A stretch of DNA of 20,009 nucleotides from a virus. Within the stretch, counting starts at the first letter, position 1. Every line of letters begins with the position of its first letter. Below are positions 2,521 to 11,473 of this stretch, one piece after another. Under the pieces are notes generated by a model. It was not told the origin of the DNA and did no database searches. It was given only the letters and a program-made list of their open reading frames with translations. The translations under genes and the position numbers were made by a program. Location of the stretch: IMG/VR virus record IMGVR_UViG_3300009167_000039, positions 1 to 20,009 of that record; one strand, written 5' to 3'.

Positions 2521-5004
2521 TTAAATTTCCCCGTTAGAATTTGGTAGATTTAAAATCTGGAAAGTCTTTGACTTATCTCTATAGATTGTACCACCCTTCA
2601 ATCCTGATTGCCACATATAATTAAATATTCTAAAGATTTCTTCAGGTGTAGTATCCTGAGGACAGTTTATAGTCTTGCTTACTGCGTTGGATATAAATTC
2701 TTGCCAAGAAGATTGCATATCGACATGATCATAAGGAGAAATTTCGTGAGAAATACTAAAAATGCGTTTTAGTTTTTCTGGAATTTTTTCCAGCCCATTT
2801 AATGACCCAAATTTTTCAACATGAGATTTAATTTCATCAATCTCAGATTCTGAAAACCCATACTTCTCTAATTTTCTAAATAAAATCGGATTCAATTCCG
2901 TAATATAATCTTTAGCAGTGTTTCCTATACCCTCTGTTATGTTTCTCCTATAGGAGAGGGCAAAGAATGGTTCTATGCCTGAGTTTACACCTGCTAAAAG
3001 TGCGATAGTGCCGGTTGGAGCGATAGAAGTTACTGAAACGTTCCTTAAACCGGCATTTTTTATTTCTTCAAAATTAAACCTGCCTGATTTATTATACCTA
3101 GAGTGTAAAACCCTCTCAATATGGCTTAAATTGACCTTTTCTGGGTCATACATAGGAAATGCGCCTCTTTCAATACCTAAATTTATAGATTCTAACCAAG
3201 AAAAGAAGGTTATAAACCAACTTAGGTAATTAGATAAGCCTTTAGAGTCATCAGAGTTATATGGTACTTCTAATTCAGCTAAAAGATCAGCTAATCCCAT
3301 AACTCCTAAGCCTAATCTCCTTAAACCACTAGACCACTCATTTATTTTCTCTACTGGGGTATAAGATAGGGTTTGTACATTGTCTAAGAACCTGATAGCA
3401 GTTCTAACTGCATATTCTAAGAATTCAAAGTCAATTTTCTCATCTTTAACAAAGGAATACAGATTTAAAGACCCTAAACAGCAAGGTTCATAAGGAAGTA
3501 GAGGTACCTCTCCACAATTAGCTGAAACTATACCTGAAAAATCACCTGCTACTGGTTTATCATCAGCAATTATGTAAGTATGTGTACCCAATACTGTACC
3601 ATTGTAAACATCGTATTTTTCTTCCAATTCTCTGATAGAGACTACTTTATGATTCCTAATTCTGTTTCTACCATGAATTTGGTTATGTTCTTCTATAGTA
3701 ACTAGTTCTAAGTTCTCTAATCTGTTATTTACAGGGTTTAAATCCTTATGATGCAGGATTAAACCACCTTCTATCTTCTCATTGAAGTGTTCCCATACCA
3801 TCCTAGCTGTATACTGATGTTTAGCCTTACCATTCACCCAACCGTGTGCACGGATATGCTTATCAACATGAACACCACCTGAAAAGGCACGAATTGATTG
3901 CCCAACTTTTAAATCCTTAGCTTTAATTTTATAGCCTCTAAAAGAATAGAAATTATGATCTGGAGTACATTTTACTTTTAATCCAGAATCAAACTCAACC
4001 TCTAAAACATTAACATTTGTTCTAGTTAACCTGGGTCTCTCCATAACGGATACTCCAGGTAATTTTGTCTCAGGATTCCAGGTATAAACTAAAACATCAT
4101 AATCTTCATCTGCTAATTCTTTAATTGTACGAGGTCCATCATAAACAGTTAATATTTTAGTATCCCCGGTAATACAAGGATTAGTAGTCTCTAAATTACC
4201 TAGATATGGTACTAAATTATCTTCATTAGCCCTGTCATAGAAGAAAACTCCCGGGTCTCCACTAGTCCAAGCCATATCAGCGATTTGTTTTAATAAATTT
4301 TTATCCTCACCTTTCATATACTCATCATCTATAACTACAGAGATATTGAAGTGAGATAACTGATCATCTTGTAGAGTTTTTTCTAGTACATGGAAATATT
4401 TAGTACCTTTCTTATCTAGACCATTTAACTCCAAATTTCTTTTGTATTCTTCTAACAATCTTTTATTCCGAGAATTTGGAGTGGATTTGTAGTTAATAAA
4501 CTTCTCTATATCTTTATGATTAATACTAAGCATACCCATTTGAGCACCCCGTCTGGATGCTTGGGAAATAACCTCACCAGTCTGGTCAAATAAAGACATA
4601 AAACTAAGAGGACCTGAAGCTTTACCTCCGGTAGTCTTTACCTCAGCACCTTCTGGTCTAAGCTTAGAAAAGTTATACCCGATACCACCTCCCCATGCAA
4701 AAATCTCAGATGCATCTTTTAGAGTCTGATAGATAGACTGTCTTGAATCCTCTATTGGGAGTACAAAACAATTGTTTAAGTTTTTAATATTAGTACCTGC
4801 ATTAGCTAAAATTCTACCTCCTGGTATAAATACTAAATTATAAATCAACTCAAAGAATTGCTTTGTATACTTTTCTTTATTTTCTTCAGTCTCTTCAGCA
4901 CTAGCTATATAAGATGCTACCCTCCAACAAGCCTGTTCCCAGGTTTCTCCAGGAAATGCGGTGTACTTCATATTGAAAATTTTCTGAGCTTTATCACTCA
5001 ACAT
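2521..5004 (-). CDS. nrdJ: Class II-type ribonucleotide reductase containing an intein
   Basis: Reduces ribonucleotides to deoxyribonucleotides for phage DNA synthesis. The precursor is 827 residues; removing the 220-residue intein (277-496) leaves a 607-residue enzyme. Visible landmarks are the first redox Cys in NNCFVLPIEDS (Cys79), the RRGAQMG segment typical of adenosylcobalamin-dependent enzymes (residues 151-157), the active-site NP/CGE (Asn275, Pro276, then Cys497 and Glu499 after splicing), the second redox Cys in PCCLGSLNL (Cys508/509) and the phosphate-binding APTGTIAL (662-669). No ATP-cone is present at the N-terminus. The C-terminus stops soon after GGTIYRDKS, without the usual CxxC tail. 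The start is backed by AGGAG seven bases upstream. It is the last gene of the leftward block. Class II is inferred from the motifs; the RNR call is firm. Confidence 0.9.
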   Translation of the reverse strand: MLSDKAQKIFNMKYTAFPGETWEQACWRVASYIASAEETEENKEKYTKQFFELIYNLVFIPGGRILANAGTNIKNLNNCFVLPIEDSRQSIYQTLKDASEIFAWGGGIGYNFSKLRPEGAEVKTTGGKASGPLSFMSLFDQTGEVISQASRRGAQMGMLSINHKDIEKFINYKSTPNSRNKRLLEEYKRNLELNGLDKKGTKYFHVLEKTLQDDQLSHFNISVVIDDEYMKGEDKNLLKQIADMAWTSGDPGVFFYDRANEDNLVPYLGNLETTNPCITGDTKILTVYDGPRTIKELADEDYDVLVYTWNPETKLPGVSVMERPRLTRTNVNVLEVEFDSGLKVKCTPDHNFYSFRGYKIKAKDLKVGQSIRAFSGGVHVDKHIRAHGWVNGKAKHQYTARMVWEHFNEKIEGGLILHHKDLNPVNNRLENLELVTIEEHNQIHGRNRIRNHKVVSIRELEEKYDVYNGTVLGTHTYIIADDKPVAGDFSGIVSANCGEVPLLPYEPCCLGSLNLYSFVKDEKIDFEFLEYAVRTAIRFLDNVQTLSYTPVEKINEWSSGLRRLGLGVMGLADLLAELEVPYNSDDSKGLSNYLSWFITFFSWLESINLGIERGAFPMYDPEKVNLSHIERVLHSRYNKSGRFNFEEIKNAGLRNVSVTSIAPTGTIALLAGVNSGIEPFFALSYRRNITEGIGNTAKDYITELNPILFRKLEKYGFSESEIDEIKSHVEKFGSLNGLEKIPEKLKRIFSISHEISPYDHVDMQSSWQEFISNAVSKTINCPQDTTPEEIFRIFNYMWQSGLKGGTIYRDKSKTFQILNLPNSNGEI
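3517..4176 (-). mobile_element. Intein with HNH homing endonuclease, in the RNR gene
   Basis: This is an in-frame 220-residue insertion between NP and CGE of the RNR active site. It begins with Cys (CITGDTKI, splicing block A). It carries the block B motif TPDH (precursor residues 347-350), and towards its end a block F-like THTYI (His475) and a terminal SGIVSAN followed by Cys+1. Between them is an HNH_3-type endonuclease core with ILHHKDLNPVNNRLENL (about residues 416-432) and a later EEHNQIH. The HNH domain would allow homing into intein-less alleles. The residue before the final Asn is Ala, not the usual His, which may slow or alter splicing. Confidence 0.9.
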
Positions 5005-11024: not shown

Positions 11025-11231
11025 TCATTCCTCTCTATACTCACTCAATAATCCTTCTAAAACTTTGGGGGAAATTAAACCTCTGAATAGCATAAATTTT
11101 AGTAGTGCGTAAAAGTTGAATGTAGATATAATAAAGGAATCAGAAGTGGTGACAAAGAATTTGCTACCTTTATTCTTCTTTATAATTATAGTTTCTAAGT
11201 CATCCAACTTAAACACTTGGATATTATTCAT
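11025..11231 (-). CDS. Hypothetical protein (68 aa)
   Basis: The start is ATG 11231, sharing TAATG with the preceding stop; an in-frame TTG at 11246 is less likely. The product is 68 residues: a basic patch (IIIKKNKGSKFF), a hydrophobic aromatic middle (FNFYALLKFMLF) and an acidic C-terminus. It could be a small mixed alpha/beta domain. No family is recognised. It lies immediately after the Tad2-like gene and is translated from the same message. Confidence 0.6.
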   Translation of the reverse strand: MNNIQVFKLDDLETIIIKKNKGSKFFVTTSDSFIISTFNFYALLKFMLFRGLISPKVLEGLLSEYREE

Positions 11232-11473
11232 TACACCACTACCCAATCTGTAGCTACCATATCCACTTCTCTGATACGGAAGAAGTGATCTCCGTCTTCA
11301 AGCTTGATCTTTAAATCTCCGTTATCTAAGTACATGTAGATTTCATTGCTTTTCCACTCAGTCCTGGTAAGCTTTTTACCAACAATAACCAGTTCAATAG
11401 CTTTTGGAAAACTCATTTCTCCATCTACTTTAGATTTCTTAGGAGTAGGGCTTGTCCTCATATCATCACTCAT
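11231..11473 (-). CDS. Tad2/DUF2829-like protein, candidate anti-Thoeris sponge
   Basis: Residues 20-80 follow the DUF2829 pattern: MSFPKAIELVIVGKKLTRTEW at the start, a short YMYLDNGDLKI strand pair, and the terminal MVATDWVVV. In characterised phage Tad2 proteins this fold oligomerises and sequesters glycocyclic-ADPR signals made by the Thoeris defence system, keeping the effector off. Here a 19-residue polar N-terminal extension precedes the domain. The start at 11473 has AAAGGAGG nine bases upstream and an ATGA overlap with the upstream gene. Domain assignment is by eye; ligand and activity are inferred from the family. Confidence 0.7.
   Translation of the reverse strand: MSDDMRTSPTPKKSKVDGEMSFPKAIELVIVGKKLTRTEWKSNEIYMYLDNGDLKIKLEDGDHFFRIREVDMVATDWVVV

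Follow-up and report, generated by a model that had tools for sequence, protein, structure and literature searches.

We conclude (with a probability of about 0.9) that a phage class II RNR carries at its active-site cysteine a class 1 intein with an HNH homing endonuclease, which excises itself without a penultimate His and probably homes. The window analyzed is an entire IMG/VR record of 20,009 bases, in which phage replication genes (DnaB, RecA, PolA, and primase, as identified by profile matches) surround the RNR gene. Our computations covered the anatomy of the intein, its exact insertion site, the conservation of its splicing residues, selection at the protein level, the occurrence of empty and occupied alleles, and transfer between RNR subclasses.

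The precursor is encoded by a single open frame of 827 amino acids (positions 2521 to 5004, minus strand), which profile and alignment results assign to the adenosylcobalamin-dependent class II RNRs of the NrdJ_Z type. The host protein matches the NCBIfam model NrdJ_Z (TIGR02504) with 555 bits, both ends of the precursor match class II RNR, and the homology to NrdJ extends over the catalytic barrel. Alignment to T. maritima NrdJ delimits an N-extein of 276 amino acids that terminates with TTNP (4177 to 5004, minus strand) and a C-extein of 331 amino acids plus stop that starts with CGEVPLLPYEPC (2521 to 3516, minus strand). Residues known from class II RNRs are aligned in the precursor at Asn275, Cys497, and Glu499, and at the cysteine pair formed by Cys79 and Cys508. 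The same alignment reveals that the C-terminal cysteine pair for re-reduction is absent from the window RNR. The protein stops in the vicinity of T. maritima residue 640, roughly the end point of the T. maritima crystal construct, and the same C-terminal end without the cysteine pair is seen in six relatives (L004, L005, L160, L162, L163, and L164). Among the scanned ORFs of the window, none matches thioredoxin or glutaredoxin. Scans of the window for tRNAs and for Rfam families returned nothing, and the empty Rfam result indicates that the window contains no cobalamin riboswitch. An 80-amino-acid ORF elsewhere in the window (11231 to 11473, minus strand) yields an above-cut-off match to the Tad2-like (Thoeris anti-defence 2) Pfam family (E = 4e-8).

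Homology to the T. maritima NrdJ chain stops at Cys322, which is the thiyl-radical cysteine of that enzyme, and restarts at the same residue, such that the insertion occupies the bond NP|CGE. Cys+1 of the C-extein (3514 to 3516, minus strand) aligns with Cys322, in agreement with the proposal in a preliminary description of this DNA that the radical cysteine doubles as the +1 nucleophile for splicing. That description also held that enzyme activity depends on splicing. Because the active-site residues Asn275 and Glu499 reside on opposite sides of the intein, RNR activity must indeed wait for its removal, and known RNR chemistry suggests that the unspliced precursor should be inactive. The further statement that NP-CGE is universally conserved was slightly too strong, given that an empty relative (L162) carries NPCSE, but the site in the window is exactly NP|CGE. 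The residue at position −1 is Pro, as it is at all NP|C sites. Judging from the available sequences, an intein at NP|C in a phage RNR is real but common. Searching viral contigs for NPC[hydrophobic]xGDT yielded at least 120 matches, and nearly all of those listed are RNR frames with inteins. Dozens of NP|C inteins are present among the viral matches listed, and so the same insertion site, which it had been proposed to seek in other inteins, is amply represented. Similar RNR inteins are present in annotated phages, including S-CBWM1 (where the element is annotated as an intein) and Dickeya phages. Inteins have been reported in phage RNRs (PMC3653736), and reviews note that inteins favor active sites (PMC7765530).

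The intein extends for 220 amino acids from Cys1 to Asn220 (3517 to 4176, minus strand; codons 277 to 496), as defined by profile matches, alignment, and an AlphaFold2 model. It begins with CITGDTKIL, ends with SGIVSAN, and matches both Pfam Intein_splicing (E = 9e-13, above the gathering cut-off) and NCBIfam intein_Nterm (E = 1e-9). In an alignment of 17 related inteins, four residues are invariant: Cys1, the N-terminal splicing nucleophile of a class 1 intein (4174 to 4176, minus strand); Thr71 and His74 of the block B motif TxxH (3955 to 3966, minus strand); and the block-F His, His199. Asn220 is nearly invariant. Block F (DVYNGTVLGTHTYII; 3568 to 3612, minus strand), which was located with the same alignment, also includes Asn192 at position F:4. 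Block G (SGIVSAN; 3517 to 3537, minus strand) carries Ala219 as the penultimate residue (3520 to 3522) and Asn220 as the terminal residue (3517 to 3519). An HNH_3 endonuclease domain (HHKDLNPVNNRLENL...EEHNQIH; intein residues 123 to 165; 3682 to 3810, minus strand) matches Pfam PF13392 above the gathering cut-off (E = 9e-12) over nearly the whole model, retains the conserved His and Asn, and looks intact. Thus, several elements of the preliminary description are confirmed, including an intein at 3517-4176 (the coordinates are exact), an internal HNH domain of the HNH_3 type, Ala in place of the penultimate His, and a spliced product whose predicted size of 607 residues agrees with the arithmetic (827 − 220).

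A C-terminal Asn followed by Cys, Ser, or Thr, as expected for class 1 inteins, is present as Asn220 and Cys+1. The penultimate His that is usual for this class is absent, and we do not consider this residue to be defining because approximately 5% of functional inteins differ there. Assignment to class 3 was rejected on the grounds that F:4 is Asn192 rather than Cys, and that position 1 is Cys. Relative to canonical inteins, about ten extra residues separate blocks F and G, which counts against the reading that we favor. Immediately ahead of the block-F His, the window intein carries a Leu-Gly pair (3583 to 3588; VYNGTV-LG-THTY) in place of the polar, mostly acidic pairs (DD, DE, EN, DN, DS, and KD) of the remaining clade members.

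The AlphaFold2 model, which was built from a 17-row alignment and has a mean pLDDT of 85.4, exhibits strands as in Hint domains. Foldseek matches the model with many solved inteins (best E = 1e-8, target TM 0.69 to 0.82), and the best PDB folds are those of the Ssp DnaB, Ssp DnaE, and Npu DnaE inteins. The two DnaE inteins splice without a penultimate His, as the window intein would, and carry at this position Ala (Ssp) or Ser (Npu); such splicing of a DnaE intein was reportedly described by Sun in 2005 (listed among the references of PMC4031507). Unlike the window intein, however, both are split, lack an endonuclease, have Asp at F:4, and reside in another host gene. The best PDB sequence match (E = 6e-7) is the NrdJ-1 intein (PDB 8ubs), which likewise derives from an RNR, but which is split, carries no endonuclease, and ends with His-Asn. 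The mycobacteriophage RDF intein (Bethlehem gp51) and related examples are phage class 1 inteins that lack the penultimate His and for which a block-F His is the proposed substitute, although their penultimate residue is Gly, Lys, or Ser instead of Ala and they interrupt other host genes (PMC5050341). Other viral RNR inteins at NP|C (RIR1/NrdJ/NrdA) share with the window intein the same bond, the residues Cys1, Asn, and Cys+1, an HNH domain, and sporadic occupancy, whereas the subclade of the window intein is distinguished by its SAN or SCN ending and its longer F-G segment. The NCBIfam model NF052663 (RtcB_rel_intein2), whose host is an RtcB-like protein, matches the intein part of the window protein (63 bits, E = 3e-17), and we claim no membership because this score is far below the whole-protein cut-off of the model.

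The same insert is present at the same position in L004 with 87% identity, and therefore chance is not an issue for the intein call. Single-sequence searches with the locus recovered only L002, which is a shortened, identical contig. Comparison of the window and L004 inteins (dN 0.071, dS 1.08, dN/dS ~0.07) indicates that the intein is under purifying selection, with a constraint like that on the RNR itself (dN/dS ~0.08 for both exteins). The same intein occupies the RNR genes of L004, L005, and L160. Intein-less alleles in related phages, another proposed check, are present in L162 and in L164/L165 (60% and 55% identity), and these empty alleles end exactly at NP|C. At the same RNR bond, L163 carries an unrelated intein of 311 amino acids ending with AHN, and L003 carries an intein of 348 amino acids that ends with TAN and has Cys at F:4; the L011 intein at this bond likewise has the TAN ending and Cys at F:4. 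This mixture of unoccupied sites and a second, unrelated intein is what a homing locus would be expected to show. L039 carries a 65% identical intein in a reductase of the RTPR type, the extein of which shares only 27% identity, and the simplest reading of this arrangement is transfer of the intein between RNR subclasses at a conserved site. We infer that the predicted HNH nuclease is active, in which case it would probably spread the intein by cutting, at this conserved site, RNR alleles that lack it.

To evaluate the penultimate Ala, 96 non-redundant complete phage RNR inteins were collected, 68 of which (window included) were found without regard to the identity of this residue. In the sample of 68, the penultimate residue is His in 29 inteins (43%), Gly in 13, Ala in 9, and Lys in 6, with others in the remainder. 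Thus, phage RNR inteins are enriched in residues other than His (~57%) relative to functional inteins in general (~5%; PMC4031507), and the penultimate His is also poorly kept in mycobacteriophage inteins (Kelley et al., PMC5050341). The SAN ending is found in L001, L004, L005, L006, L039, L072, L129, and L160, and a Cys variant (SCN) is found in L120. The window intein, seven others ending with AN, and one ending with CN form a single clade (support 97). Because eight inteins share the SGIVSAN-type ending across NrdJ and RTPR-type hosts, this ending is best viewed as a lineage trait, and the range of identities to the window intein within the clade (46 to 87%) indicates that the Ala is old and stable. 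L003 and L011, which end with TAN|CGE, were rejected as clade members because they are different, longer inteins with Cys at F:4; the penultimate Ala therefore arose more than once. L038 was also set aside since it matched the pattern THTYIIAD but is not an intein. In contigs from prokaryote genomes, the pattern V-S/T-A-N-C-G-E-x-P gave 26 matches with none in an RNR frame, and thus a SAN-type ending was not found there by this pattern.

We propose that, after translation, Cys1 would take the acyl group of the N-extein and Cys+1, the future radical cysteine, would then accept it from Cys1. Asn220 would subsequently cyclize, and the exteins would join to yield the 607-amino-acid RNR. Cyclization would proceed without a penultimate His, most likely aided by the block-F residue His199, whose invariance among the 17 aligned inteins makes it the most likely stand-in. 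A block-F His can take over the role of the penultimate His, and a phage RDF intein splices faster with its native Gly than when this Gly is changed to His, which makes splicing much slower (PMC5050341). We infer that the window intein splices promptly, and probably constitutively. Splicing may nevertheless be slow, because F:4 is Asn rather than the usual Asp and because Pro precedes the intein. A search of the papers covered for the effect of Pro at position −1 gave nothing; in the Mth RIR1 intein, this residue reportedly slowed splicing in E. coli.

A regulatory role could be assigned to the same features. If the odd C-terminus makes Asn cyclization slow or dependent on a signal, the RNR would remain inactive until a cue such as redox state, pH, or temperature is received, and splicing of an insert at the catalytic residue would switch the enzyme fully on. 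Two additional deviations, Asn at F:4 and Pro at −1, fit this view, and Kelley et al. suggest that phages use the penultimate residue to tune splicing (PMC5050341). We nevertheless consider conditional splicing to be improbable, given that the tested phage intein is faster, not slower, with a non-His residue (PMC5050341), that the penultimate His is missing from ~57% of the phage NP|C inteins in the sample, and that the same C-terminus occurs in different RNR subclasses, which points to intein ancestry rather than to the regulation of one host enzyme. Moreover, the only cysteines of the intein are Cys1 and Cys70, and the residue at −3 is Thr, leaving no obvious disulfide trap; the sequence of the window intein shows none of the known regulatory devices, for instance a Cys at −3. 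The preliminary description linked Ala to slower Asn cyclization or to the need for a compensating residue. Slow splicing on this account is not supported, given the retention of Ala throughout the clade, the frequency of non-His residues at this site, and published non-His inteins that splice, one of them better than with His. Its suggestion that conditional splicing regulates dNTP supply likewise finds no support, since there is no disulfide device and the ending is a lineage trait. The F-G segment of the L006 intein (ADSCYCGKCENGLMSGIVSAN) has three cysteines in the loop before SAN that resemble a metal or redox site, and this intein may be a better candidate than the window intein for conditional splicing.

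Two other readings are less probable still. The absence of both the penultimate His and the F:4 Asp of textbook inteins might indicate a decaying element, wherein Ala marks the loss of splicing and the resulting dead RNR is dispensable to the phage. This is very unlikely because the frame is open, the intein and exteins are similarly constrained relative to L004, and the remaining splicing residues and the RNR catalytic residues are all kept. Least probable is an ordinary domain inserted in the RNR, a formal possibility alone and the outcome that the preliminary description regarded as contrary to an intein. The matches to intein families above cut-off, the Cys1 and Asn-Cys ends, the Hint fold matches, and the empty alleles that end exactly at NP|C refute this reading as far as sequence can.

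For the self-excising class 1 intein that we favor, the penultimate residue may be linked to position F:4. Among the 96 inteins, a penultimate His accompanies Asn at F:4 in 0 of 41 cases, Asp in 35 of 36, and Cys in 3 of 19. The comparison of Asn with Asp gives a Fisher p of 4e-21, which is a naive value because the rows are related. Two independent switches at F:4 lie on strongly supported branches, and the best tree has five; every one of them follows the predicted direction, and an independent-pairs test is without significance because supported pairs are too few. Examples of close pairs include L068/L125 (Asp, His), which are nested in a clade with Asn and Lys or Arg, and L169 (Asp, His), which adjoins the clade of the window intein (Asn, Ala). 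A second sample from many host genes, chosen by a block-F pattern that admits Asn and Asp, exhibits the same trend, with exceptions that combine Asp with Ser or Lys, or Asn with His (L332 and L334). Outside phages, Ssp DnaE (Asp at F:4, Ala penultimate) is an exception to the pairing. We found no description of this pairing in the portion of the literature covered, which is weak evidence given that partial coverage. It is conceivable, though we advance the idea only tentatively, that phage RNR inteins hold a distinct class 1 configuration in which Asn with non-His is coupled as opposed to Asp with His and the block-F His cyclizes Asn, with the window intein as a member. The pairing constitutes a testable rule, namely that a change at F:4 is accompanied by one at the penultimate residue. 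Restoring the penultimate His has been noted to have inconsistent effects (PMC4031507, PMC5050341), and the pairing, if confirmed by experiment, would help explain why this change rescues some inteins and harms others.
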